The position numbers and the translations under genes were made by a program. Shown here one piece after another: positions 189-16,121 of a stretch of DNA of 64,000 nt. The notes beneath the pieces are model-generated. The model was not told the origin of the DNA. It saw nothing but the letters and a program-made list of their open reading frames with translations, and did no database searches. The stretch spans positions 62,001 through 126,000 of the forward strand of contig CAMBXO010000006.1 of the NCBI GenBank assembly GCA_945871915.1. Reading direction: 5' to 3'. Position 1 is the first letter of the stretch; each line of letters begins with the position of its first letter. This DNA comes from Singulisphaera sp. GP187 (GTDB taxonomy: Bacteria > Planctomycetota > Phycisphaerae > Phycisphaerales > SM1A02).

Positions 189-920
189 TCAAATCGTGAT
201 CACCTCGCCTTGCATAAGGCGAGGGATGGTTGTGGTGGATGGATCAAACCCATCGGGCATGTGGATGAGTCGCATGCGAGACCGGATCGATTCAGGCAGA
301 GCATTCAAAGGCTCGATCGGCGTGTGCGTGGGCGGCGGACTGGTCTCATGCACAATCAGCGTTGCACCCACTTCAAGCCAATGAATCAGGTCCGGATCAA
401 ATGGAGTGTCGGAACTCCACGCTAAAACTTTTCCAGCATGTTGAAAGCGGAGCGCAATCGTTGGAACCGAGTGATCGGTCGGTCGACAACGAACGCTGAT
501 GCCTGCAATGTGGGCCTCCCGATCTGGATCCAACAGATGCACTTCGAAATAATCCTTCAAGACCGCCTTGCCACCTTGGTCCATGGCAGGAGCCAGTCGC
601 TCCCAGAGCCGATTGGCCACCGGCTTCCAGCAATGCAGCCGAGGCAGGGGCGTGCCGTGATTGCGATGCAGCAACCAGCGGGCGAATCCAATGCTTTCCA
701 GTCCATTGCAATGGTCACCATGAAGGTGCGTCACGATCAAATCTTGCAGTGACGGGATGCTTAACTTCCAGCCGCTTTGGTCGCTTGCGCATTGAAGCGC
801 GCGGTGGATTGAATCAGGGCAATCGACCAGCACCTGCCCCTTGGAGCCTTCAACAACACAGCAGGATCCGAAGAGCTTTGTGCTGAACGCGTCGCCTGTA
901 CCGACAACGAGCATCCGCAT
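189..920 (-). CDS. MBL-fold metallo-hydrolase, RNase Z-like
   Basis: A 243-residue cytoplasmic protein of the metallo-beta-lactamase superfamily. The metal-binding signature THLHGDH lies at residues 64-70. Further likely ligands are H150 (in TDHS), D171 (in SSDTPFD) and H191 or H220. The N-terminus GTGDAFSTKLFGSC resembles RNase Z/arylsulfatase-like members, which open with a G(T/S)G-x(n)-S motif. Its length is shorter than canonical RNase Z (about 300 residues) and no clear flexible arm is visible, so tRNA 3' processing is only one possibility; phosphodiesterase or other hydrolase activity is equally open. It converges on citrate synthase and is divergent from the barrel operon. The ATG at 920 is supported by a TACGAT box six bases upstream. 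Confidence 0.8.
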   Translation of the reverse strand: MRMLVVGTGDAFSTKLFGSCCVVEGSKGQVLVDCPDSIHRALQCASDQSGWKLSIPSLQDLIVTHLHGDHCNGLESIGFARWLLHRNHGTPLPRLHCWKPVANRLWERLAPAMDQGGKAVLKDYFEVHLLDPDREAHIAGISVRCRPTDHSVPTIALRFQHAGKVLAWSSDTPFDPDLIHWLEVGATLIVHETSPPPTHTPIEPLNALPESIRSRMRLIHMPDGFDPSTTTIPRLMQGEVITI

Positions 921-926
921 AGGGCG

Positions 927-932
927 ATCGTA
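927..932 (-). promoter_or_regulatory. -10-like TACGAT box, leaderless start of the MBL gene
   Basis: On the minus strand TACGAT is followed by six bases and then the ATG at 920. If transcription starts about 7 bases after the hexamer, the mRNA would begin at or next to the start codon. Confidence 0.4.
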
Positions 933-1026
933 ACAAAGCGAGAGACAAGCATGTGCAACACGCTCAAGACTCCGGGTTTCCTAGTCGCTGGACATTCCGT
1001 GTTGTCCAAATGCTGGATCGTCGGTC

Positions 1027-1055
1027 TTGCTCAAACGCCGGGTTGCGGCAATACT
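1027..1055 (+). promoter_or_regulatory. Candidate promoter of the barrel/FecR/cyclase operon
   Basis: TTGCTC at 1027-1032 and AATACT at 1050-1055 are separated by exactly 17 bases, a sigma70-like arrangement. The predicted transcription start (about 1062) is only a few bases before the ATG at 1066, so the mRNA would be almost leaderless. This is a motif match only. Confidence 0.35.
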
Positions 1056-1065
1056 TGATTCGTCG

Positions 1066-2544
1066 ATGCGGCCAGTGCTCCTCATCAGCGTTCTCGTTGC
1101 TTTCTCCATGTGGGAATCGGTCGCGTACGCGCAGAACGCATCGGTTGTTGCGCAGAATCTTCAACGCCAACTCAATGTCGAAGATGCGGAGTATCGCCAG
1201 GCATTTTTTGCAGCGACTCCCATTGCCGATCGCGTCCTTTTCGATGCTGGAGGAACCTATCGATTCGGTTTTAGTTTGATTGATAACGCTCGAAGTCAGG
1301 AGCAGTTGCTCTACACCAATGATCTGCGATTGTTCCTGCGAGCCGAACTGGATGGCGGCTTTCGATTCTTCGGTCGCCTTCGATTTCTGTACAACGATTG
1401 GGATTACACCGGTACGCTGGGTCTTGGTCCAGATCCTCGTGAAGACGGATGGCAGTGGCCCGTAGGGGAAATCTATTGGGGCGAGTTTGATCTGGGTGGG
1501 TACAACGAAAGCAAGCGAGGGCAGCGACCCACGGATTTCAATATTGTGGTTCGGGGCGGACGGAACTATGTGATCTGGGCTCAAGGCCTCGTTCTGAGCA
1601 ACTATGTCTATGCCGGTGAACTTGAAGTGACGATTGGCGACTTGGTGGCCACAGGTGTGGTGGCGCAGTCGGCTGGTTATGACACGGTTGACTGGGATAC
1701 TTCGCGACCGGGTTACGACACGGATACCTCGCGTCTTTTCTCCGGCGGCAAGGTGGAATGGCGAGGCATCACAGGTCATCGACCCTATGCCTACTACTTA
1801 TGGCAAAACGATCAGAACGGAGGCCAGCAGGCAACGACTCCGGTTCCAACCACCTTCCGTTACAACAGCGGATATGTGGGGCTTGGATCCGTGGGAAACA
1901 TCGGTCCAGATATCGTCTATCGATCGGAGTTTGCGTATGAGTACGGGACAACGCTGAGCGATCCACTGGATCCACTGAATCCTCCATCACTTTCGCGGCC
2001 TCAGGTCACCGACGACATCAGTGCGGCCGCAGGCGTTGTTGGATTGACTTGGATTGCGCGAGATGCCGGTGACACGCGCGCCGACTTTCAGGCACTCGTG
2101 GGAACTGGCTCATCGGAGCGCCTCGACAGCGGTACCACCTTTGGAGGTATCAACCCCGGCAAGACGGACCACAGTTTCAATTCGCTTGGATACATCAACA
2201 CGGGCTTGGCGGTGGCACCTGAACCTGCCAACCTTTTCTGCCCATCGCTTGGACTCAGTTCGAATCTGCTTCCCACCTCTGACCTGTTGAGTGAATTGAG
2301 ACTGGGCATGACGGGGTATCTCTTTATGAAAGTCCAGAATGACGCACCGCTGAGCATTCTGACCATGCCCGGCGGCAGCAACTTTGTCGGCGGCGAAATC
2401 GACTGGACGCTGGACTGGCGTGTTTCGAGCGACATCAACTTCAATTTTCGCTATGGCATCTTTCTGCCCAACTCGTCGGTGTTCTTTCCTGGCGACGGCG
2501 GCCCACGGGATTTCATTTATGCGGGGGTGACCTATGCGTTCTAA
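1066..2544 (+). CDS. Outer-membrane beta-barrel protein (porin/alginate-export-like)
   Basis: A 492-residue exported protein. Residues 1-22 form a signal peptide ending in AYA, so I choose the ATG at 1066 over an upstream TTG at 1027. The mature part is rich in alternating aromatic and polar strands (for example RLFLRAELDGGFRFFGRLRF and WTLDWRVSSDINFNFRYGIF) and ends in an aromatic residue (VTYAF), as expected for an outer-membrane barrel inserted by BAM. Overall it resembles the AlgE-like/alginate-export or porin class; I cannot name a substrate. It is the first gene of a rightward operon; its 3' end overlaps the start of the lipoprotein gene by 11 bases, and the FecR and CHASE2 genes follow. 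A role as the outer-membrane part of an envelope-sensing or secretion device is inference from context. Confidence 0.7.
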   Translation: MRPVLLISVLVAFSMWESVAYAQNASVVAQNLQRQLNVEDAEYRQAFFAATPIADRVLFDAGGTYRFGFSLIDNARSQEQLLYTNDLRLFLRAELDGGFRFFGRLRFLYNDWDYTGTLGLGPDPREDGWQWPVGEIYWGEFDLGGYNESKRGQRPTDFNIVVRGGRNYVIWAQGLVLSNYVYAGELEVTIGDLVATGVVAQSAGYDTVDWDTSRPGYDTDTSRLFSGGKVEWRGITGHRPYAYYLWQNDQNGGQQATTPVPTTFRYNSGYVGLGSVGNIGPDIVYRSEFAYEYGTTLSDPLDPLNPPSLSRPQVTDDISAAAGVVGLTWIARDAGDTRADFQALVGTGSSERLDSGTTFGGINPGKTDHSFNSLGYINTGLAVAPEPANLFCPSLGLSSNLLPTSDLLSELRLGMTGYLFMKVQNDAPLSILTMPGGSNFVGGEIDWTLDWRVSSDINFNFRYGIFLPNSSVFFPGDGGPRDFIYAGVTYAF

Positions 2545-3274
2545 GTTCGCTACGGTGATCCTGCTTGGCATACTGTTGTGCAGTTGCAAGCCCTATGTCC
2601 TTAGCAACTCGGCGGTCGAGCAGTTTCCTCAAGCGGATCAGGAAATCGATTTCCTTGGCGCAGTGGAAAAAATGCAGGCGGTGACGAACAATGATGCGAT
2701 CCACGGCTTTCTTCTTCTGGCCGATGGAACTGATCCCTTCACCGACTATCCGCAACGATTGAGTGAAGCGAAGAAGCGGCAATGGGTGCAGTCTGATTTT
2801 GGGAAACCCGCCAATGAAGCAGCGAAGGTTGGGTGGATGGCCACGGCGGGGTGTCGTGTGATGCATGTTCAGGGTGGATTGACCATGCGTCTGTTTGGTC
2901 CCATGCCTCGCTACGCGACGAAAGAACTTGTCTTTATGGAGATCTTGCCGCTGCGAACAGAAAACCAAATTCTGACTGGCGGCGAGTTTGTGGACTATCT
3001 CAATCGACTTGATCGGATTGCGGGTAAGAACAGACGAGCGCAAAGCGGAACGCCGCTTGGCATGCCCGCAGGCGAGTCGGCCGCTATGCCGGGAAACGAG
3101 GCGGCGATTCAAGAGGGAACGCTGCCGGAACAGGGACCCCGTGAGGGTGGGAGCCAGCCAGCGCCAGAATCTGGTGGGCAAGGGGCGTCGCAGCCCTCGG
3201 TCCCCGGTTCAACACCTTCTACCGTGCCCGGCACACTTACGCCGCCGCCGCGGACCGTGCCACCAGCGTCCTAG
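2534..3274 (+). CDS. Putative lipoprotein with Pro/Gly/Ser-rich tail
   Basis: A 246-residue protein of unrecognised family. The N-terminus MRSKFATVILLGILLCSC is a lipoprotein-type signal peptide, with C18 (or C16) the probable lipidated cysteine. Residues about 25-160 form a compact domain with conserved-looking Trp, Gly and Cys (C107); residues about 175-246 are low-complexity Pro/Gly/Ser/Glu, typical of a flexible periplasmic linker. The start overlaps the upstream barrel gene by 11 bases, implying translational coupling and co-function. It is followed, after 117 bases, by the first FecR-domain gene. The function is unknown; attachment to the barrel or to the FecR proteins is a guess from operon position. 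Confidence 0.65.
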   Translation: MRSKFATVILLGILLCSCKPYVLSNSAVEQFPQADQEIDFLGAVEKMQAVTNNDAIHGFLLLADGTDPFTDYPQRLSEAKKRQWVQSDFGKPANEAAKVGWMATAGCRVMHVQGGLTMRLFGPMPRYATKELVFMEILPLRTENQILTGGEFVDYLNRLDRIAGKNRRAQSGTPLGMPAGESAAMPGNEAAIQEGTLPEQGPREGGSQPAPESGGQGASQPSVPGSTPSTVPGTLTPPPRTVPPAS

Positions 3275-3391
3275 AACGGATCGACAGATGGTGAAAATTG
3301 GATTGAGATGAAGAATCCGGATGCGATTGCTCGTAATTAGATCTGAGAGTGCATGGAGCTTGCTGCCCATGCCGGGCAGAATGCGTTGTCG

Positions 3392-5443
3392 ATGAACAAG
3401 AAAGACATGAAACGAACCATCTATTGGCATCTCGTGCTTGGGGTGCTGTGCATGCCGATTCGCAATGTGCGGGCGGATGATGCGGTGGCACCGCCAATGG
3501 ATGCGGTTGCACCGAGTGCGACTGCGGATGCGACGCAGGCTTTGCAAGCCATCGTTATGGATGTGTACGGCAAAGCTCGTTGGCGGCCGTCGACCAATGC
3601 TCCGTGGCGGGATGCCAAAGTCAACGATCTTGTTGATCCGGGGACTGAGATTCGAACCGGGCTCAAGAGTCGCTTGACGCTCCGCGTTGGGCGGAATGCA
3701 ACGGTGCTGGTGGATTCGGGAACTTCATTTGAATTACCCGAAATCATGGAGGAGGGAAGCACGCTTCGTACAACGGCCACGGTGCGCTCGGGTCGCGTGG
3801 ATTTCAAAGTGGATAAGGTTGGATTTGCAAATGACTTCAAGGTTGTAACGCCGCAGACCACACTCGCCGTCCGCGGAACGGGCTTTAGCCTGACGACTGG
3901 ACCGCTTCAAGGTTTTGAAGTGACCGGCGCCCGCACCAATGCGATTCATGCGATCGAATTGAACTATGTCGGGCAGAATCTTGCCTACTTTGTAAGTCAG
4001 CAGGGCCAGAGCACTTCACGACAACAGGACCCGGTTCAGAATGCATGGGTGAGCACGATTGGTCCGCCACCGCTGGTCGGAACTCTGGTGAACAACGAGC
4101 AACTTCAACAGCAGGTGGCGCAGGGAACCGCAGGCAATGCCCCCACCAATCCGCAGCAGTTTCAGCAGATTGCCGCGGCCGAGTCCAACGGGGCGGGCGG
4201 CAATGCTCTGATTGTTGCCGCGCAGGATCCCAGTGTTTCAGATGAATTCCTGACATTCGCCGACGACGCCACCAATGGATCCGATGCGGTTCCGTCGGAC
4301 TTGCTCGGAAGCTTGCCAGCTGGATCGTTTCTCAAACGAGGACTTGCCTATGTGCGGCATGAAGTACCGCATGCGGTCAGCGATGCACTCAAGACGCAGG
4401 TCGCGGCCGCAGCATGGCTGAAGGATTCAGAGGAACTTAGCGCCATGTGGACGGACAACGATTCTGCGTTGCGGGACTTTGTGGAATCGTTCGATGTGAC
4501 ATCGAACATCGACAACAAGTGCGAGGGCATCATCGATCAGGGCTCGGTGCAGACGCCCGACAAGATCGCCGAACAGATTGCCGACTGGGAAACAGCCAGA
4601 GGAAGACACCTCTTTACGACGAGTCCGATCGGACAGAACAAATTGTCGCAATTTGGAGGCAACAAGAATTCGGATGGCGGAATCTTGCAAGCCCTGCAAC
4701 ATGCAAGGGAATGGAGCCTTGAGGACAGGACCTCCGCACTCGACCTGGCTGCGGGGATTGATGCGGCATTGGTTCCCGGCGGAGACTCTATCGACGTGCC
4801 ATTCACGGACCTTCGCAGCATTGCCGAGGATTGGGGCGTGGATGCCTCGAATGGCATGGGTCCGTCACAGGGAAGTGCCTTGTCTCTTTCCATGACGATG
4901 AATGAATCCGTTCAGACGGCCTGGGATGATGTGGTGAAATTAGTCCTGACCTCGTCTGACTTTTCGCAGGTTGGAAATCTGCACAAGGCCGTCTCGTTGT
5001 CTTTGAGCAAGATCCAGAACAATGTGATCGAACTCGTAGGTCGTGAGGTTCCGCTCGGCGCCGGGGATCTGGTTTATGAATATGCAATCGATGCTGCGGC
5101 CGCTGGAACGCCAGCCAGCACGCAAGCTCAAATCGAAGTGGCGCAACTGGGGGCGCAAGCCACAGCAGCTGCTTCGCTCGCATTGAGTAAGTCGCTTGAA
5201 GCGTTGGAGGCCTCGAGCAATGCACGAATGATGGGGCAAAAGGTGTTCTTCGAAGCTGCTGCGGTGGGGCACTTAAAACAGGCAGCACAAATCGCTGGTG
5301 ACTGCCAAGCAGAGACGGCCGCCATTCTTGGGAACGCCAATGAGATTTCTAGGATTTATCTCGACACGCACGGGCAAGCCCGAAATGCCGGGAGATTGCC
5401 TCCGCAATTCAATTCGGGTCGTTCATTGGATGATGGAAAATGA
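3392..5443 (+). CDS. FecR-domain exported protein 1
   Basis: About 683 residues counting from the ATG at 3392; ATGs at 3407 (signal peptide starting MKRTIYWHLVLGV) and 3353 are alternatives. After the signal peptide comes a FecR domain (roughly residues 40-165), recognisable from the paired motifs 'GTEIRTGLKSRLTLRVG' and 'VVTPQTTLAVRGTGF', which typify the anti-sigma/sensor FecR fold. The remaining 450 residues are helical and Ala/Gln/Ser-rich, and end in a module beginning MMGQKVFFEAAAVGH (about residues 613-655) that is repeated twice in the downstream paralogue. Classical FecR proteins have an inner-membrane helix and partner a FecI sigma factor; neither is seen here, so the protein is probably periplasmic. 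It overlaps the next gene by ATGA. Association with the CHASE2 cyclase is inferred. Confidence 0.75.
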   Translation: MNKKDMKRTIYWHLVLGVLCMPIRNVRADDAVAPPMDAVAPSATADATQALQAIVMDVYGKARWRPSTNAPWRDAKVNDLVDPGTEIRTGLKSRLTLRVGRNATVLVDSGTSFELPEIMEEGSTLRTTATVRSGRVDFKVDKVGFANDFKVVTPQTTLAVRGTGFSLTTGPLQGFEVTGARTNAIHAIELNYVGQNLAYFVSQQGQSTSRQQDPVQNAWVSTIGPPPLVGTLVNNEQLQQQVAQGTAGNAPTNPQQFQQIAAAESNGAGGNALIVAAQDPSVSDEFLTFADDATNGSDAVPSDLLGSLPAGSFLKRGLAYVRHEVPHAVSDALKTQVAAAAWLKDSEELSAMWTDNDSALRDFVESFDVTSNIDNKCEGIIDQGSVQTPDKIAEQIADWETARGRHLFTTSPIGQNKLSQFGGNKNSDGGILQALQHAREWSLEDRTSALDLAAGIDAALVPGGDSIDVPFTDLRSIAEDWGVDASNGMGPSQGSALSLSMTMNESVQTAWDDVVKLVLTSSDFSQVGNLHKAVSLSLSKIQNNVIELVGREVPLGAGDLVYEYAIDAAAAGTPASTQAQIEVAQLGAQATAAASLALSKSLEALEASSNARMMGQKVFFEAAAVGHLKQAAQIAGDCQAETAAILGNANEISRIYLDTHGQARNAGRLPPQFNSGRSLDDGK

Positions 5444-8031
5444 AAACGAGGTTTACCATGGGTTGTGTAAGAAGTATTCGTTTCGCCGGTTGGTCATTTG
5501 TCGCCGGCCTGATGGCGTTGTCGGTGGGCGTGGTTGCCCACGCGAATGGGGCCACCGAAACAGGAAGTGGTGCAACAACCCTCCAAGCCATCATCCTTGA
5601 AGTGAATGGACGTGTGCGTTGGCGAGAGAGTGAGCGGGCGGCGTGGCACGATGCCAAGATGAATGATCTTCTGAATGCGGGTGCAGAAATCCGAACGGGT
5701 CTGAAGAGTCGGGCCGGACTTCGAATCGGCAAGAACGCGACCGTGTTGGTGGACGCAGGCACAACCTTTCAATTGCCACAGATCGTGCAAGAGGGAGCCA
5801 CGTTACGAACGCTCGCTGGCGTGAAGTCGGGTCGCGTCGACTTTAAGGTGGACAAAGTGGGATTTGCCAATGACTTTAAGGTGATCACTCCGCAAACCAC
5901 GCTCAGTGTTCGAGGCACTGGCTTTGGTGTGACCAGTGGATCCCTGACCGGATCTCAGGTGGTGGGTGCGCAGACCAACGAAATCAATGCCATTGAACTG
6001 AAATACCTTGCAAGCAATCTTCAGTACTTCATGTCGGGCGGTTCAAAGAGCGATTCGAATCAAAAGGATCCGGTGCACAATGCATGGCTCAGCACGCTTG
6101 GCCCTCCGCAGTTAGCGGGAACGGTGGTCTCTTCAGAACAATTAGAGCAGGCCGCGGCGCAGGGAGTGGTCGGCAATGCGCCCACGAACCCGCAGCAACT
6201 CCAGCAGCAAGCGGCGGCTCAGTCCAACAGCCAAGTCACAGACCAATCGCCCCTGGCGGGCCTTCTTCGTCTCGAATCTGCTGATGCGGATCAAGCGAGG
6301 GATCATTCCAGTCTCACGCTCGTTCATGCAGGGGATGGAGACAGCGCGGCGGATGACGCAAACGAATCGGGCATGAGTCGAGAAAGCGATCTGAACGCTG
6401 CGTTACTTATTGGAGCATCGCTGGAGACTCAATGGGGTACCGTTTTAAATCCGGGTGATCAAGCAACGATGACGGAGTTGTCTACGTCATCGGATACAGA
6501 TAACAACACGATGTCCGATCTGCATGACGATATGAATGCCGCCATTACAGTTGACAACGATGTGGGGGTCGCCGATGCCTTGACTGCTATGGGGGACATC
6601 GATGACGCATGGCAGGAAGGGCTTGTGGCGCAAGTGAGCGACATCGTTGAATCCATTCAGGGTCTGCAAAGTGATCTGTCAGCAGCGCTCACGGTCTCCG
6701 AAGCGTCCGATGAGAGTTACAACGCGTTGCTCGATACGGCGACAACCAAAGTCAACCTTGCAGAATCCACAGCATCGTCCTTGAGTGGTCTACAAGCTTC
6801 GATTCAGAGTTATCAATCTGCCGTGCAATCGATTGTGGCATCAGGAATGGGTGGTGCGGGCGCCGCTGCACAGTTGGCGAGGTCAGTCGAAATTCTGAAC
6901 ACAGCTGTGGCAAGAATTGCGGCAGCTGTCTCGGCAACGGATGCGGCCGTGGCCAAACTGGCACTGGCTCGCTCGATGGGCGAACGCGTGTTGCTTTCCG
7001 CCGTGATTGCCGCCAATGCAAGAGGCCTGGAGATTCATGGTGAGGCGGCGACGATTCAAACCGCAATCCTTGCCAATGTGCAGGCCATTGAAGCGGCTCG
7101 ATTTGGTGCGTTCTTTGCGGCTTCTGCAGCAGCGGTCATTGCGCTTGAAGAAGAATCCACCACCGCAGCAGACTCATTTGATCCTGTTGCCGCTGACGCA
7201 CAGGCCTACCGCGATCAGGCAGATGTGCTTGGAGGGGTGGATGGAGAGTCAGGACAGATTGGCGTGGTGGTCGATCTTGAAGCCAATATGAATACATTTT
7301 GGACCACCGTTGGCCAAGGGGGATTCTCCCCAAAGGTTCGCATGGAAGCCCTCCAAGATCAAAGCGATACGGATCGTGCAGCTGCGGCCACCATGCTGAG
7401 TGATCTGAATGATTCGATTGGTTTAAATGACTCCAGCGGTGCGGGATTGTTCCTGGGAGACCTTGTCGCGCTGAATGCTGTTTGGAATGATCCAGACGAA
7501 GGGCTTATGGTTGAGGTGAATGGAATCAACGGTGAAGTGCAGGGCCACTTGGCATCCGTGAATGCAGCCTTCTCAACCGCCACCAATTCCAGAAGTGACT
7601 TCAATGGATTCTTGTCCGCAGCAACGGCTCGGCGGGATATCGCACAGGCATCCGCCTCGCGTATGAATTTTATCACCTCTCAGATGGGGGCGTTCCAGAT
7701 TCGGTATACCGAGTTGGTCGCACAGGGGCGAGGTGGGGAGACGGCGGCGGTGCAATTGCAGAACGCCATCACTGCACTTGACGGCGTAGCAGGTCAAGTG
7801 CAGGCAGGGATTGATGCAAGCATTGCGGCAGCTGATGCCGTGGCAACCGCCACCACGTACGGGCAAAAAGTATTCTTCGCCGCCGCATCCGATGCTCACG
7901 CTCGTGCGGCCACAACGGCGGCTGAGGCAGCGGGTCTTCAAGCGAGTATTGCGGCCAATGCAGCGGCGATTGCAACCGATACGGCAACCGGGCAGACAAA
8001 TTTCGACAACGCCTTTGGCACTGGCCCCTAA
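5440..8031 (+). CDS. FecR-domain exported protein 2 (paralogue of the preceding gene)
   Basis: An 863-residue tandem paralogue of the preceding FecR protein. A signal peptide occupies about residues 1-35 (ending VAHAN). The FecR domain spans about residues 45-170, with 'GAEIRTGLKSRAGLRIG' and 'VITPQTTLSVRGTGF'. Both paralogues then carry the segment 'GNAPTNPQQ', so the homology extends beyond FecR. The long C-terminal region is Ala-rich, helical and internally duplicated: two copies of a module starting near M513 (SMGERVLLSA) and Y807 (TYGQKVFFAA) match the single copy in paralogue 1. The start codon overlaps the upstream stop (ATGA). Together with the CHASE2-cyclase that follows, it probably forms a periplasmic sensing assembly. 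The ligand is unknown. Confidence 0.75.
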   Translation: MKTRFTMGCVRSIRFAGWSFVAGLMALSVGVVAHANGATETGSGATTLQAIILEVNGRVRWRESERAAWHDAKMNDLLNAGAEIRTGLKSRAGLRIGKNATVLVDAGTTFQLPQIVQEGATLRTLAGVKSGRVDFKVDKVGFANDFKVITPQTTLSVRGTGFGVTSGSLTGSQVVGAQTNEINAIELKYLASNLQYFMSGGSKSDSNQKDPVHNAWLSTLGPPQLAGTVVSSEQLEQAAAQGVVGNAPTNPQQLQQQAAAQSNSQVTDQSPLAGLLRLESADADQARDHSSLTLVHAGDGDSAADDANESGMSRESDLNAALLIGASLETQWGTVLNPGDQATMTELSTSSDTDNNTMSDLHDDMNAAITVDNDVGVADALTAMGDIDDAWQEGLVAQVSDIVESIQGLQSDLSAALTVSEASDESYNALLDTATTKVNLAESTASSLSGLQASIQSYQSAVQSIVASGMGGAGAAAQLARSVEILNTAVARIAAAVSATDAAVAKLALARSMGERVLLSAVIAANARGLEIHGEAATIQTAILANVQAIEAARFGAFFAASAAAVIALEEESTTAADSFDPVAADAQAYRDQADVLGGVDGESGQIGVVVDLEANMNTFWTTVGQGGFSPKVRMEALQDQSDTDRAAAATMLSDLNDSIGLNDSSGAGLFLGDLVALNAVWNDPDEGLMVEVNGINGEVQGHLASVNAAFSTATNSRSDFNGFLSAATARRDIAQASASRMNFITSQMGAFQIRYTELVAQGRGGETAAVQLQNAITALDGVAGQVQAGIDASIAAADAVATATTYGQKVFFAAASDAHARAATTAAEAAGLQASIAANAAAIATDTATGQTNFDNAFGTGP

Positions 8032-8114
8032 CTGAATTCGGTAACGGTCGCCCCACTGGCTTCCGTGAACTGCGCCACACTTGCCGTGGAGTTTCGGTAC
8101 AACTCACCGCGTCC

Positions 8115-10802
8115 ATGCGTCAATTTCAGAGGTCAGCCTTTGTGGTGGGTGCGGCCATCACCGCGTTGGTGTTGCTGACAGATTTCATGGGACTCTTTCG
8201 CTGGCTGGAGGATTGGACGCTCGACATCCGGCTACGCGACGGTCGATGGGAACCTGAACACCCCAGCGAGCACTTGCGACTCGTTGCGATCGATGACGCA
8301 AGTCTGGACACGATTGGTCGCTGGCCTTGGCCGCGGTCAACCATCGCCATGGCAGTTGAAGAAATTGCTCGATCGGGAGCGGCGGTGGCCGCCTTCGATA
8401 TTTTGTTCTTGGAACCCGAGGAAGGAACTGATGGCGACCGCAGACTTGCCGAGGCAATGCGTTCACTGAAATCGGTCGTGGCTCTGAGTGTGCGTGAAGA
8501 GAAGAGTCTCGACGCCGTCTGGGAGACACCGGCTGGCCGTGCCTCTCTGAATGCCTTGGCACTTGCGTGCCGAAATGGAATCGATCGGGACATTCAAGTC
8601 ATCGTCGATGAGTCGAAGGTGCCCGAGCCATTTCGGAGCCGAATTCTTGATCGACCAGCGACGTATAAGGCCCTCGGTGCCTGGCTTGTGCTGGAGCAAG
8701 AGCGAAAAGAGAATCGATTACCACGAGATTCAGAATCGTTTGTCGCCCTCATGCTTGGCGGAGGCGTGGATGCACAACGCATCGGAAATTTTGGCGAGCG
8801 GCCACTCATCCAGCGAGCATGGGAACGGGGTGAGAGTTGGAGAACCATTGGTCCATCGCTGAAGCAGAGCATGGACGCACAGGGCTCCGCACAAGACCTT
8901 CCGCCCATCCGCGAAGTGGCCTCAGCAGCCAGCATGTTTGGCGTTGTCAATGCCGAGCCAGATCGCTTTGATGGGCGGTTGCGCCGCGTGTCGCCGTTGT
9001 TTGCAACTGATCGCGGTCTTGCGCCGCAACTCGGAATCGCAGCCGCGCTCGCGTTTATGGGAAAGAGTGCACACGACATGGAATTGAAGGGTGACACGCT
9101 TCACCTTGGCGATCGAGCCTTTCAATTGCGACGAGGCAAGTTGACCTTGGATTGGTCGACGGACTTGCTTGCCGGCTACGGAAATTCGGTTGGCGGATCG
9201 CAGCATGACACAGCGGTGATCAGTATTGGGCGATTGGTGGAACAGGCTCAGAATCGAAAGCGTGTGGTGCAACAGAAACACCGGCTTGCAGAACTCGGGC
9301 TCGATATTGCAAAGGGGCTGCTGGGTCGTGACGAGGCGTGGTTTCAAGAAGCATCCAAGAGTGACCGCTTCAAGCACGAGGTCGACGACATATGGACGAA
9401 CGATTATGCCGATGCGGCAGATGATCCCGATTTGACTCCAGAGCAAAGAGTGGCGGTTGCGTCCCTGCGTGAGTGGCGGCTCTTGGAATCCGCCGCCACC
9501 GATGGTGCGATCAAAGTTGCCGAGGTGGATCAATCGATTCAGAAAATCTTGAAGGGGACCTTGGTGTTCGTTGGCTTTACGGCAACAGGCGTGATGGCGG
9601 ACATGGTGAACACGATTTTTGACCCGCGTACCCCCGGCGTGTTTGGACACATTGGTGTGGCAGACATGATCCTGAACAATCGATCTCTGCGGTTTGCACC
9701 GGCGTGGACTTCCTCCATCGCCATTCTTCTGCTTGGGCTTACGGCGGCGGTGGTGGCCGCCCGGTTTGGTGCCGGTGCGGGCTTTGCAGCGCTGCTGATT
9801 TTGTTGATTGGATACGCGGGGGTTCTCGGCATTGTCGGATTTGACCGCTTCGATGTGGTGTACCCCATGGCCGCACCGGTCTCGGCAGGTCTTGGGAGTT
9901 GGGTGATCGCCACGGCGGCCGTGGCCATGATGAATCAAAGGGAACGGAAACGCATACAGAAACAGTTCCGGGCACGAGTGAGTCCGCAATTGGTCGACAT
10001 GCTTGCAGAAAATCCAAAGGCACTCTCCATGGAGGGCGTTGAGCGAGAAACCTCCATTCTGTTTTGCGATCTCGCCGGATTCACGACCATTAGTGAAACA
10101 ATTGGTGGACCTGAAGTGGTGCGAACGCTCAATCTGTACATGGGGGCTTTGACACGCGAACTGACCGAGAAGCGTGCATATGTCAATAAGTTTCTAGGCG
10201 ATGGCCTGCTTGCGTTTTGGAGCGCGTTCGATGAGGAGCCAGACCAGTGTGCATTGGCCGTCGCGGGCGCGATGGCGTGCCAGAAAATTGTGAAGGAGAT
10301 TGGCGAGCGACCAGAGCGTGCCGGCCTTCCACCGATTTCACTCCGCATTGGTATCGCAACAGGCAAGGTGGTCATTGGTGACTGTGGCGCACCGCCGGAC
10401 CTGAACGATTACACCGTGATCGGTGATACGGCCAATCTTTCCAGCCGCCTCGAAAGTGCCAACAAGCAATTTGGTACCAGTGTGCTGGTGGATGGCCGAA
10501 CAGCAGAAGGTGCTCGATCTGCCGGGCTGCCTTTGTGCAAACTTGGCCGGGTGGTCGTGGTCGGGCAAAGTGTTCCGGTCGAGGTCCTTGAAGTCTGTCT
10601 TGAACCAAATCCCTTGGAACGCATCACCATGACAGAAGCGGCGGTGGAATGTTTTGGGAGAGCCGATTTCGACGGAGCGAAAATTGCATGGAGCCGCTTG
10701 GAGGCAAGATTTGGTCCATGCAAGACCGCCGCGGCATTTCAGGATGCCATGAAGAACCCAAACGATTTGCGAGATGGGGTTCTGCGTCTTCGCGCAAAGT
10801 GA
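8115..10802 (+). CDS. CHASE2-domain adenylate/guanylate cyclase
   Basis: An 895-residue inner-membrane receptor cyclase that would make cAMP (or cGMP) in response to a periplasmic signal. One transmembrane helix (about 8-28) precedes a CHASE2 sensor domain with its hallmark DIRLRDGRW and AIDDASLDTIGRWPW. Three helices at about 531-613 return the chain to the cytoplasm. The class III cyclase domain (about 640-860) has both metal-binding aspartates, D652 (FCDLAGFT) and D696 (GDGLLAFW), the transition-state pair N774 and R778, and K692/T767 at the base-selecting positions, a pair common in bacterial adenylate cyclases. It should therefore be active. It follows the FecR pair after 83 bases with no strong terminator. 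Its stop is one base from the stop of the convergent phosphatase gene. Confidence 0.88.
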   Translation: MRQFQRSAFVVGAAITALVLLTDFMGLFRWLEDWTLDIRLRDGRWEPEHPSEHLRLVAIDDASLDTIGRWPWPRSTIAMAVEEIARSGAAVAAFDILFLEPEEGTDGDRRLAEAMRSLKSVVALSVREEKSLDAVWETPAGRASLNALALACRNGIDRDIQVIVDESKVPEPFRSRILDRPATYKALGAWLVLEQERKENRLPRDSESFVALMLGGGVDAQRIGNFGERPLIQRAWERGESWRTIGPSLKQSMDAQGSAQDLPPIREVASAASMFGVVNAEPDRFDGRLRRVSPLFATDRGLAPQLGIAAALAFMGKSAHDMELKGDTLHLGDRAFQLRRGKLTLDWSTDLLAGYGNSVGGSQHDTAVISIGRLVEQAQNRKRVVQQKHRLAELGLDIAKGLLGRDEAWFQEASKSDRFKHEVDDIWTNDYADAADDPDLTPEQRVAVASLREWRLLESAATDGAIKVAEVDQSIQKILKGTLVFVGFTATGVMADMVNTIFDPRTPGVFGHIGVADMILNNRSLRFAPAWTSSIAILLLGLTAAVVAARFGAGAGFAALLILLIGYAGVLGIVGFDRFDVVYPMAAPVSAGLGSWVIATAAVAMMNQRERKRIQKQFRARVSPQLVDMLAENPKALSMEGVERETSILFCDLAGFTTISETIGGPEVVRTLNLYMGALTRELTEKRAYVNKFLGDGLLAFWSAFDEEPDQCALAVAGAMACQKIVKEIGERPERAGLPPISLRIGIATGKVVIGDCGAPPDLNDYTVIGDTANLSSRLESANKQFGTSVLVDGRTAEGARSAGLPLCKLGRVVVVGQSVPVEVLEVCLEPNPLERITMTEAAVECFGRADFDGAKIAWSRLEARFGPCKTAAAFQDAMKNPNDLRDGVLRLRAK

Positions 10803-10803
10803 A

Positions 10804-12141
10804 TTACGACCAGGCGACGCGCTTCAAGATGATGGCCGTGCAATCGTCCTTGGCCGCAAGACCACTACGCCACGCTTTCACCGCAGCATCGCATGCGTGC
10901 AGAATGGCTTGAGGGGATTCGGTGCGCATGGATCGAATCAAGTCCTCACATCGAGCCTGCTGCCACTGTTCCCCCTTTGAATCTTCGCTTTCAAAATAGC
11001 CGTCCGTCAGAGCAATCAATAGGTCACCTGGGCTCATATGCAAACGCGTTCGTTCATCGGGCAATTCCTCAGGAACAATTCCCATTGGCGGCGTATCCGT
11101 TGGCAAGGTGACAAAATCGTTCGTTGCCGCGCGGAAATGTAAGACAGGTCCTTGTCCTGCGGCGATGCATTCAACCCGTCCGGTGGCGAGTTCGACTCGG
11201 GCATACCACCCTGTCACAAATCGCCCCATGGGCAGGTCCTGACAGAGTTGGCGATTGGTTTCCGAAACGATTCGCTCCATGGGTTGATTCATTCGAAGGC
11301 CTACGCGAAGCATGGCGCGCGCCTGCATAGCGCTCAAAGCGCTGTCGATGCCGTGCCCGGTCGCGTCTGCAATAAGCAGCACCAATTCATCGACGGTCTC
11401 CGAGGGATCGACAATTTGTAAATTGGAGACCGGAATCACATCAAATGCATCGCCGCCGCACTGTTCGGCAGGTTCACTTGCGGCAGCAATCTGCCAAGTA
11501 TCCAACGTAGGGAACGAGGCAGGGAAACTGCTCTGCTGAATGAACTTGGCTGCTTGAAGATCTCGTTCCAATCGCTCGCGAGCGACGCGATCTTCAATCA
11601 GGCGACCACGCCGGATGGCTACGGCTGCTTGCGCTGCAAGCCCCGATGCGATCGCTTCATCGGCTGGTCCAAAGATTCCTGTTCGGTGATTCAAGACTTG
11701 TGCAACGCCGACGAGTCCGCCTTCGTGATCGAGAAGGGGAATGGCCAAGATGGTCTTGGTTTTGTAACCCGTCGCAAGATCAATATTGCGGTTGAACCTG
11801 GAGTCAGCGTACGCATCTGGGATGTTCACAATGCAACGGCCGCTTGCTGCGGCACCGGCGATGCCACGATTGGCAGGGATACGAATAACGCTGGGCGAAT
11901 CCTTTCCGCCCAGCCCATGCGCAACCTGCGTGAATAACTCATTGGATGCACCATCAAATTCAAAGACGGTTGCTCGCTCGGCATCAAGCAGATCCCGTAA
12001 CGCATCAATGACCGTGAAAAGAACTTCAGCCAAATCACCCGTCTCTGCCAGCCGGCGTGACACCGCGAGCAGCTTGCCAACCGCATCAGGTGGAAGCGAG
12101 CCCCTTTCTTTGCTCTCGTTGTGTGGTGCTGGGTGACTCAT
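10804..12141 (-). CDS. GAF-domain SpoIIE/RsbU-type PP2C serine phosphatase
   Basis: A 445-residue cytoplasmic signalling phosphatase. A GAF sensor domain occupies about residues 35-178. A helical linker (180-205) leads to a PPM/SpoIIE phosphatase domain (about 215-440) with the expected metal-binding acidic residues at D231/D234 (GGDAFD), D259 (ADATGHG) and the closing DDCTAI. RsbU-type enzymes dephosphorylate STAS-domain anti-sigma-factor antagonists in partner-switching cascades. No anti-sigma or STAS gene is in the window, so its partner is elsewhere. It is the last gene of a leftward set after the dehydrogenase and enolase genes, 10 bases behind enolase, so it is probably co-transcribed with glycolytic functions. 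The GAF ligand is unknown. Confidence 0.85.
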   Translation of the reverse strand: MSHPAPHNESKERGSLPPDAVGKLLAVSRRLAETGDLAEVLFTVIDALRDLLDAERATVFEFDGASNELFTQVAHGLGGKDSPSVIRIPANRGIAGAAASGRCIVNIPDAYADSRFNRNIDLATGYKTKTILAIPLLDHEGGLVGVAQVLNHRTGIFGPADEAIASGLAAQAAVAIRRGRLIEDRVARERLERDLQAAKFIQQSSFPASFPTLDTWQIAAASEPAEQCGGDAFDVIPVSNLQIVDPSETVDELVLLIADATGHGIDSALSAMQARAMLRVGLRMNQPMERIVSETNRQLCQDLPMGRFVTGWYARVELATGRVECIAAGQGPVLHFRAATNDFVTLPTDTPPMGIVPEELPDERTRLHMSPGDLLIALTDGYFESEDSKGEQWQQARCEDLIRSMRTESPQAILHACDAAVKAWRSGLAAKDDCTAIILKRVAWS

Positions 12142-12151
12142 GATGCACTAC

Positions 12152-13492
<1,341 letters not shown>

Positions 13493-14462: not shown

Positions 14463-14567
14463 GCAGAAGCGTGGTTTTCGGACCATCAGGCCTTGCGTTC
14501 TGGCAGCCATATCGGATTCTGAATCACATTCTTGCCTTGTTCCCGTTTATGGAATTGGAAATCTCGC

Positions 14568-16121
14568 ATGCCACGTCGATTTGGAACCAGTCTTGCACTC
14601 TCAGCCCTTGCGGTCGCAACGCAGGCATTTGCTACCAGTGATGGTGGGCTTGCCGCGTTGCAGGCGCGACTTGGAAGCAACACTCCAACTGGTAACGGCA
14701 TTGGGGTTATGCAAGTCGAAGCGCCGATGACTTCGGGCGGATCAGACTTTGCGCCGGATGTGACCAATAGCGAGTTCATTGGAAAGAGCATCGTTGTCAT
14801 GAACACACCGTTGAGTGCCGGGTGGCATGCAACCAATGTGGCCATGCGTTTGTATGGGGCGCAGACTTCAATGGCTCATGGAATTTCCAATGCCTGGGTG
14901 TACAACACCTCCAATTGGGTAAACGACAATCTCAATGTCGGCAAAGGCTCAACGGCTCCAACCACTCTGCCACATGCCGGGATTCGTGTCATGAACCACT
15001 CGTGGCTGAGCACCTATGGAAGTGCAGCGCCTGATCGCGAGGCGGTCCGCCGAATCGATTATCAGATGACGCGAGATGGCGTGCTGGCAGTCTGCGGAGA
15101 GAACAACGGAGCAGGTTCCACGCGGTATCCCTTGATGGGTGATTGCTTCAATGGGATCAGCGTCGGGCGAACCGATCTGCAGCACTCGGCTGGTGATACC
15201 GCAGCGGCCAGCGACGCGCCGGGCCGCATGAAGCCCGAATTGATTGCACCCGGACAATTCACCAGCTTTTCCGCGCCCACCGTTGGGGCCGCAGCATCGC
15301 TTCTGTTTGAAACTTTTCAGTCGACGAGCAGTTCCGGCATAACCAACGCTCAAAAGTGTCAGGCTGTGAAAGCCTGTTTGCTCGGCGGTGCCGACCGCGA
15401 CGCATCATGGGCCAACAATGCTCCAGCGTCTGGAACCAATCGAGGTGTTGCAACCAAACCGCTGGATGCGTTGCGAGGGAGTGGTGAGTTGAATGTTGAT
15501 CAATCCCATCTCATGCTGACAAGCGAACGGGTGGATGGTGCGACGACGATTGCGGCAACGGCCGAGGCCGCATCGACTGGATGGGGAACCGCCACGCTGC
15601 TTCCGTCTGGCAAGGGATATTGGCGGTTCCGTTTGTACCAACCTGCAGCATCACTCGCCTTTACCGTGGTGTGGCCGCGAACGGTGGTCAGCTCATTCAC
15701 CAGTTACACATCGGCCAACATGAATCTTCGGATGCAGCGTGCCCTCAATGGAGCCACGCAACTTCGGCCGCTTGAGGGAGACGGCGGATTGGCAACCTTT
15801 GGAAGCGGCAATGTTTCAAGCAATTCAGCGGTGGACAATGTGGAGACCATTCAACTGCGTGATTTGCAGCCCGGTGAATACATTGTCGAACTCAGTCGCA
15901 GCGACTCGATCGGAGCCAATTTCACCGGATATGCGGCATGGTCGATCGATCCGGCCGCCATCGGAATTGCCGGCGATGTCGATGGTTCCGGATCTGTGGA
16001 CTACGGAGACGTGGCGCTGGTGGTGCTTAGCTTTGGTGACGACGAACCGATTGCCGACATCGATGCCAACGGAACGGTGGACTACGGAGACATCGCGTTG
16101 GTGCTCCTGAACTTCGGTTGA
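14568..16121 (+). CDS. Secreted subtilase-like (S8) protein with dockerin-like tail
   Basis: A 517-residue exported protein; the ATG at 14568 gives a good signal peptide (MPRRFGTSLALSALAVATQAFA). The central part looks like a peptidase S8 fold: H87 in AGWHATNVA fits the HGT position, N178-N180 the oxyanion region, and S235 in FSAPTVGAAA the nucleophile (usually GTSMAAP). The normal DTG aspartate is not visible; the aligned stretch GIGVMQVEAP offers E51 instead, so activity is doubtful. Residues about 470-517 contain two dockerin-type calcium-binding repeats, GDVDGSGSVDYGDVALVVL and ADIDANGTVDYGDIALVLL. Such dockerin-like C-termini are common on secreted planctomycete proteins and need not imply a cellulosome. 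It is divergent from the dehydrogenase operon. Confidence 0.72.
   Translation: MPRRFGTSLALSALAVATQAFATSDGGLAALQARLGSNTPTGNGIGVMQVEAPMTSGGSDFAPDVTNSEFIGKSIVVMNTPLSAGWHATNVAMRLYGAQTSMAHGISNAWVYNTSNWVNDNLNVGKGSTAPTTLPHAGIRVMNHSWLSTYGSAAPDREAVRRIDYQMTRDGVLAVCGENNGAGSTRYPLMGDCFNGISVGRTDLQHSAGDTAAASDAPGRMKPELIAPGQFTSFSAPTVGAAASLLFETFQSTSSSGITNAQKCQAVKACLLGGADRDASWANNAPASGTNRGVATKPLDALRGSGELNVDQSHLMLTSERVDGATTIAATAEAASTGWGTATLLPSGKGYWRFRLYQPAASLAFTVVWPRTVVSSFTSYTSANMNLRMQRALNGATQLRPLEGDGGLATFGSGNVSSNSAVDNVETIQLRDLQPGEYIVELSRSDSIGANFTGYAAWSIDPAAIGIAGDVDGSGSVDYGDVALVVLSFGDDEPIADIDANGTVDYGDIALVLLNFG

Follow-up and report, generated by a model that had tools for sequence, protein, structure and literature searches.

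A conserved planctomycete operon that may join an AlgE-type outer-membrane barrel and an SLH-fold lipoprotein to a CHASE2 class III cyclase

Signaling from an outer-membrane barrel to a CHASE2 cyclase has been described in S. meliloti, where the barrel of NsrA occupies residues 600-1200 and signal transduction is reported to require NsrA together with its cognate cyclases (PMC7529298). CyaK is SMb20776, a gene of pSymB, and S. meliloti also has a CRP-family regulator, Clr (PMC5498481). Related arrangements occur elsewhere. In Campylobacterota, a CHASE2 cyclase is clustered with a FecR-domain protein and a cyclic AMP (cAMP) phosphodiesterase (PMC9239204), and in BiofilmReg the genes for a LysM-FecR protein and a CHASE2-histidine kinase are adjacent (PMC5192318). 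Here we describe a locus in a planctomycete genome, listed as Singulisphaera sp. GP187 (assembly GCA_945871915.1), in which genes for an outer-membrane barrel, a lipoprotein, two FecR-domain proteins and a CHASE2 cyclase follow one another; it lies in a stretch of 64,000 nucleotides (nt) of contig CAMBXO010000006.1 (positions 62,001 to 126,000), hereafter the window, to which the coordinates below refer. We put at about two in three the probability that this operon is one envelope-spanning sensor, running from the AlgE-fold barrel and SLH lipoprotein through FecR and CHASE2 to a class III cyclase and cAMP. This relay is unproven, though well supported because of the conservation of the operon and the published precedent.

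The genes of the operon are as follows.

1066-2544, plus strand: barrel gene, an open reading frame (ORF) with ATG at 1066 and an alternative TTG upstream at 1027
2534-2544, plus strand: 11-nt overlap of the barrel stop with the lipoprotein start, presumably giving translational coupling
2534-3274, plus strand: lipoprotein gene, an ORF with a predicted cryptic triple SLH-type domain at residues ~35-168 and a Pro/Gly-rich tail
3353-5443, plus strand: FecR-1 gene, product presumably exported; start ambiguous (3353, 3392 or 3407)
5440-8031, plus strand: FecR-2 gene, exported FecR-domain protein with an Ala-rich C-terminal region
8115-10802, plus strand: cyclase gene, CHASE2, transmembrane and class III adenylate cyclase

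An earlier sequence-only reading of the window had described five ORFs in a single direction, overlapping ends of barrel and lipoprotein genes, and a FecR pair coupled by ATGA. All three hold: every ORF is on the plus strand, the first two share 11 nt, and the FecR genes overlap at 5440-5443. The catalytic residues that it named in the cyclase (D652, D696, N774 and R778) are as claimed, and its outer-membrane barrel agrees with the AlgE fold of the predicted model.

In the mechanism we favor, the AlgE-fold outer-membrane barrel would be partnered by the lipoprotein with its SLH-type domain, and together they would set the state of the exported periplasmic FecR-domain protein or proteins. FecR would act on the periplasmic CHASE2 domain, switching the cytoplasmic class III cyclase and thereby the formation of cAMP, so that the operon would work like a split NsrA-CyaK; a neighboring metallo-β-lactamase (MBL)-fold enzyme would probably remove cAMP in those lineages that have its gene. 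The genes and their domains, the predicted folds, the conserved linkage and co-occurrence, and the intact catalytic residues are direct results of the analysis. We infer the contacts from barrel and lipoprotein to FecR and CHASE2, the direction of signaling, the cAMP product, the phosphodiesterase activity, the stimulus and the effector.

The strongest reason for reading the planctomycete operon as one pathway is the NsrA/CyaK precedent. On pSymB of S. meliloti 1021 there is one CHASE2 cyclase gene; immediately before it lies an ORF of 1219 aa, and the stop of this ORF shares one base with the cyclase start. The product of the ORF has a FecR domain at residues 85-179 (E 2.3e-15) and TPR repeats, N-terminal to the published barrel region, and we identify the pair as NsrA/CyaK because of what PMC5498481 and PMC7529298 state. 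In both organisms a FecR domain and an outer-membrane barrel are encoded upstream of, and on the same strand as, a class III cyclase with a CHASE2 domain; in the planctomycete enzyme the catalytic residues are intact. The two systems differ in that FecR, TPR and barrel form a single chain in NsrA, whereas barrel, lipoprotein and FecR are separate proteins here, and in that the planctomycete barrel is AlgE-type and is accompanied by an SLH-fold lipoprotein. The Campylobacterota cluster differs in another way, as a TPR protein is named there rather than a barrel and SLH lipoprotein and the FecR protein is called an outer-membrane protein (PMC9239204); BiofilmReg has a kinase output, with no barrel described in the available part of PMC5192318. 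FecR-cyclase gene neighbors also recur on Ruegeria and Paracoccus plasmids. No paper on a planctomycete barrel/SLH/FecR/CHASE2 operon was found in the open-licence PMC literature, as judged by titles and the starts of abstracts.

Within the order (Phycisphaerales), barrel and cyclase are tightly coupled in presence and absence. Among 121 related genomes (cyclase searched at 1e-20, barrel at 1e-10), the cyclase was found in 54 and the barrel in 53, with both in 50, the cyclase only in 4, the barrel only in 3 and neither in 64 (Fisher p 2e-25, shared ancestry ignored). One cyclase-only genome (G099) has a contig that ends ~340 nt before the cyclase start and the other three (G085, G096, G103) have weaker cyclase matches, while in each barrel-only genome (G012, G102, G105) the barrel locus reaches a contig end. 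CHASE2 was found in 66 of the relatives, and 50 of these also have the barrel; three genomes had a barrel without CHASE2.

Gene order is similarly conserved. Searching with a barrel alignment gave 124 relatives in named genomes, and 80 of these were retained. The lipoprotein gene comes next after the barrel in all 75 loci with at least 700 nt following, and in 57 of these 75 a start codon allows the identical 11-nt overlap (the start nearest that position being chosen). Where there is room, the next operon gene after the lipoprotein is FecR (67 of 73 loci), the cyclase (5, one on the opposite strand) or none (1). Among the 51 barrel loci with at least 8 kb downstream, 47 have a same-strand cyclase; it is on the opposite strand in L159 and L163, and L110 and L137 are without one, the L110 contig being filled by two FecR genes and L137 being the contig of genome G023. 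The gap from FecR to cyclase is at most 294 nt in 48/52. A second set was built from the cyclase side and comprised 58 neighborhoods (57 new stretches and L015), whose ORFs were scanned with iterated profiles; the cyclase was found in 58, the barrel in 43, the lipoprotein in 44 and FecR in 44 or 45, according to which of two FecR profiles was used. The usual order, where contigs are long enough, is barrel, lipoprotein, one to three FecR genes and cyclase (families f1, f2, f4, f5 and f6). A FecR gene follows the cyclase in L075, L077, L153, L157, L165 and L171, and the cyclase is convergent in L083. The gene order recurs in several lineages within the order, the outcome that the sequence-only reading had said would support it, and a single-copy oddity is ruled out by this conservation. 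Evolutionary distances at 29 loci are also correlated (Spearman: barrel-cyclase 0.86, barrel-lipoprotein 0.75, lipoprotein-cyclase 0.73, barrel-MBL 0.71); we give these values no weight because shared phylogeny explains them. The public titles of the metagenome-assembled genomes behind L101, L102, L112 and L145 (Singulisphaera, Chitinophaga, Vicinamibacteraceae) look doubtful for operon-bearing contigs.

In the wider phylum, the barrel was found in 44 of 392 genomes, in two of these at E near 1e-5 only. The 32 barrel loci studied outside the order (L194-L225) comprise 14 with all four parts, 11 with barrel, lipoprotein and FecR, 5 with barrel and lipoprotein, 1 with barrel, FecR and cyclase (L218, the cyclase on the other strand) and 1 with the barrel alone; in L225, four FecR genes stand in a row. 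The most constant pair is therefore barrel and lipoprotein, and the cyclase is their usual, not universal, partner. Following one of the cyclase-free barrel-lipoprotein loci, L211, a NIDO/BACON-domain protein is encoded at 6690-8957, perhaps a different partner.

Several of these observations, and some further ones, weigh against a relay from barrel to cyclase. Outside the order a cyclase is present at only 15 of the 32 loci, some contigs being short, and L197, L211, L213, L222 and L223 extend >10 kb past the operon genes without one; barrel, lipoprotein and FecR can therefore exist without a cyclase output. Inside the order, G080 has a third barrel locus, L226, in which no cyclase appears over the 11 kb that follow FecR. 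In G023 the cyclase (L054) and the barrel-lipoprotein-FecR genes (L232, the L137 contig) lie on separate contigs, and no barrel occurs in the 12 kb upstream of the cyclase. Conversely, a cyclase relative with a long but barrel-free upstream flank is found in L084, L085 and L086, and CHASE2 occurs without the barrel in 16 of the 66 CHASE2-bearing relatives, in 13 of them by weaker matches. The operon genes are inherited together, so the counts are not independent events. Finally, the NsrA barrel and the planctomycete barrel gave an hhalign probability of 0.2% (from a single NsrA sequence), which lends no support to homology between the two.

The relay from outer membrane to cyclase that the sequence-only reading proposed is thus backed by conserved order and by the NsrA-CyaK analog, and is weakened by the many cyclase-free loci outside the order. 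That gene order would trace the path of a signal does not follow, as order by itself is no evidence of one, and the FecR pair is not a fixed part, the number of FecR genes varying from 1 to 4 among loci. Clustering of FecR and CHASE2-cyclase genes was rightly given as known (PMC9239204), and barrel-to-CHASE2-cyclase signaling was already in print as well (PMC7529298). What is new here is the division into separate parts, the AlgE-type barrel and the cryptic SLH lipoprotein.

The barrel is predicted to be an 18-stranded, AlgE-type outer-membrane protein. Its AlphaFold2 model (pLDDT 87.3, pTM 0.84) has 18 counted strands and an N-terminal helix at residues 25-49, and the best structural match is AlgE (Foldseek E 9.9e-21; VIA Z 27.8 over 381 residues, root-mean-square deviation [rmsd] 3.8), with an identity of 14-17% in structural alignments. 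The barrel of OmpM is also among the fold matches (Z 19.5). By profile, the window barrel scores 20.0 bits against Pfam Alginate_exp (PF13372), under the cut-off of 25.2; 28 of 30 aligned family members match this model at E 0.1 or better (best 7.5e-18), and all 30 end in Phe (alignment A2). No PDB sequence matched the barrel profile at E 1, the AlgE link coming from the fold search only, and NCBIfam gave nothing at E 0.1 for barrel, lipoprotein or cyclase. The planctomycete barrel thus resembles AlgE in its predicted 18-strand fold and in the Alginate_exp matches of its family; it differs in being linked to a cyclase, with no alginate gene noticed beside the operon (by reading only).

For the lipoprotein, sequence-only searches, Pfam and NCBIfam among them, gave nothing useful on identity: the Pfam scan assigned no family, and the Pfam SLH profile matched 0 of 27 family members at E 0.1. 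The lipobox Cys is invariant in 67/67 aligned sequences. The model (pLDDT 84.2 overall, 94-98 per block over residues 21-160) is matched by 13 SLH entries (SpaA, Sap) at VIA Z 10.2-12.0, over up to 131 residues and with rmsd 2.9-3.6; an S-layer cytochrome comes next (Z 7.7), and the best unrelated row has Z 3.3. Helical folds may score high by chance, but here the SLH entries top the list, far above the rest. Foldseek alone was weak for the same entries (best E 0.018, probability 1.00). The model suggests that the lipoprotein carries a cryptic triple SLH domain, a cell-wall-binding type of fold with putative binding here, and a new fold was rejected on this account. At the position of the ITRAE-type Arg, which we take to be functional in SLH repeats, the aligned proteins have Asn in repeat 1 (66/67), Arg in repeat 2 (19/67) and Gly in repeat 3 (67/67), with the register set by eye; given these altered positions, the ligand may differ from SpaA's pyruvylated sugar. 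In L154, the lipoprotein ORF (11052-12986) is 644 aa long where ~200 is usual, has no Pfam match, and is accompanied by a cyclase on the opposite strand.

These two folds also allow a different interpretation, in which barrel and lipoprotein form a pore or wall-attachment unit, an OmpM-like tether or a polysaccharide exporter, and FecR, CHASE2 and cyclase regulate it or merely share its transcript, with no signal from barrel to cyclase. We consider this unlikely, although it is a serious contender. The AlgE and SLH folds fit it, as does OmpM, which combines outer-membrane tethering with a channel (PMC10628300) and resembles the planctomycete pair in having an SLH domain plus a barrel, the SLH protein here being lipid-anchored and separate from the barrel. 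The barrel-lipoprotein loci without a cyclase outside the order, with L226 and G023 inside it, also speak for it. Against it stand the tight coupling of barrel and cyclase within the order and NsrA, where FecR, TPR and barrel belong to one signaling chain; in addition, reading through the window brought up no gene for polysaccharide synthesis next to the operon, with no dedicated search made.

In the relay that we prefer, the periplasmic step would fall to the FecR proteins. Both exceed the Pfam FecR cut-off of 24 (29.9 bits for FecR-1, 28.8 for FecR-2), with no other Pfam domain above cut-off and no recognized anti-sigma part in either. They are paralogs, with 58% identity over 259 N-terminal aa and no notable similarity further on. 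A hydrophobic, signal-like stretch occupies residues 15-33 of FecR-2, with no other above threshold; that of FecR-1 is below threshold. No other FecR-domain proteins were found in the window genome. Across the barrel-side and phylum sets, FecR ORFs range from 143 to 2082 aa (n=111), 25 of them being at least 800 aa long; starts were unrefined, some ORFs are cut by contig ends and a few genomes are in both sets. PDB sequences gave nothing at E 0.1 against FecR-2. In NCBIfam, both proteins weakly match two models of leptospiral surface proteins, Lsa33 and LipL45; the best E is 1.2e-7, well short of the cut-off, and the FecR domain may account for it.

The cyclase matches Pfam CHASE2 with 124.4 bits and Guanylate_cyc with 51.2 bits. 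Besides the four catalytic residues it has K692 and D765, which we take to be the purine-specifying pair of adenylate cyclases. In 95 distinct cyclase ORFs (650 aa or more, the window's own counted in), D652 is retained in 95, D696 in 94, N774 in 93, R778 in 93, K692 in 94 and D765 in 79. The window genome (2.24 Mb) was found to have three class III cyclases and one CHASE2 protein, the cyclase of the operon. A second class III cyclase, with a HAMP domain (L240, 104-3207, minus strand), has an ATGA overlap with the gene of a 458-aa protein that ends in Phe and looks like an outer-membrane barrel (weak KdgM match, E 0.0074), so L240 is possibly a second cyclase-barrel pair. At L239 (1339-2433), a PilZ domain is fused to a class III cyclase, a possible meeting point of cAMP and cyclic di-GMP.

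Two further genes flank the operon; each accompanies it in part of the family and is not core.

189-920, minus strand: divergent MBL-fold neighbor, Apyc1/YhfI-like
10804-12141, minus strand: convergent GAF-SpoIIE (PP2C-type) phosphatase

The MBL gene is on the opposite strand in 41 of the 80 barrel loci. The window protein falls below the cut-offs of Pfam Apyc1 (E=1.5e-10) and NCBIfam; all 15 aligned family members match Pfam Apyc1 (best 1.8e-16) and carry the HxHxDH motif (15/15), and among solved structures the family profile comes closest to Apyc1 (E 1.3e-31). By these matches it is a probable cyclic-nucleotide phosphodiesterase, and the related MBL phosphodiesterases of Bacillus favor cAMP/cGMP (PMC9117128). 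That it is the RNase Z of the genome was rejected, as a better RNase Z-type match lies elsewhere (contig C10, 49.6 vs 31.6 bits), neither reaching the curated cut-off. The phosphatase scores 132.6 bits for Pfam SpoIIE and 65.5 for GAF, and its gene occurs at 28/80 loci. In 26 of these it is downstream, 21 times on the opposite strand and 5 times co-directional, and in 2 (L156, L158) it is upstream. With a phosphodiesterase-like gene and a GAF-SpoIIE phosphatase gene beside the operon in many relatives, the relay can hardly be called self-contained, as it once was. Scanning 900-12200 for the sigma-70 consensus gave 0 promoter-like sites (shuffle mean 4.9), a result that says little for this phylum, and terminators were at chance level (11 vs 10.9 expected). 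Farther downstream, positions 14532-16121 encode an apparent secreted subtilase-type protein with dockerin-like C-terminal repeats, as seen by eye.

As for an effector of cAMP, no CRP-type regulator was found in the window genome, and the sole protein found there with a cyclic-nucleotide-monophosphate (cNMP)-binding domain (L238, 316-1899, contig C11) has it fused to an MscS-type channel. CRP as a universal effector was rejected, since, of the 50 genomes that have both barrel and cyclase, 17, some of them incomplete, had no PF00027 domain at E 1e-3. Genomes with a cNMP domain are commoner where both barrel and cyclase are present (33/50) than where neither is (17/64), kinship ignored. These results bear on a reversed flow, in which the CHASE2 cyclase would respond to a cue in the periplasm, and synthesis or opening of the barrel would be tuned by cAMP. 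A shared operon and an AlgE-like pore would suit it, but the search of the genome gave the MscS-type channel and no CRP-type regulator, and in the NsrA-CyaK case the action of NsrA precedes that of the cyclase; we regard it as improbable.

A Pycsar-type anti-phage system, the MBL neighbor being its Apyc1-like regulator, is hard to credit. The PADLOC PycC model does match the cyclase (E 6.2e-25), but only over the catalytic domain, a region that solved adenylate cyclases match as well; the other six proteins have no PADLOC match at E 0.01, no effector is among the seven scanned, K692/D765 is of the purine type, and the operon is conserved across the order. Classical FecR signaling to an extracytoplasmic function (ECF) sigma factor whose gene lies elsewhere, the cyclase being a bystander, has the FecR domain in its favor and is very doubtful, because, unlike in FecI/FecR/FecA, no anti-sigma part is recognized by Pfam, no sigma gene was seen in the cluster (as the sequence-only reading had said, the rest of the genome not being searched for sigma factors), and FecR stands next to the lipoprotein gene in 67/73 loci and within 294 nt of the cyclase in 48/52.

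NsrA-CyaK is the only experimentally studied barrel-to-CHASE2-cyclase pair found in print. The planctomycete core of barrel, lipoprotein, FecR and cyclase would be a second, modular version, whose steps are separately deletable; together, the NsrA chain and its split counterpart point to FecR as the link. The operon also hints at what a lipoprotein family with no Pfam entry may do, a family whose SLH-type fold is hidden from sequence profiles. A more speculative and rather unlikely elaboration is a gauge of wall attachment, in which the SLH lipoprotein would tie the barrel to the wall, the variable-length FecR tails would serve as periplasmic rulers, and a loss of attachment or spacing would switch the cyclase, with cAMP acting on the MscS-type channel. 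If true, it would constitute a second-messenger route from the state of the outer membrane to membrane conductance, operating without a CRP regulator.

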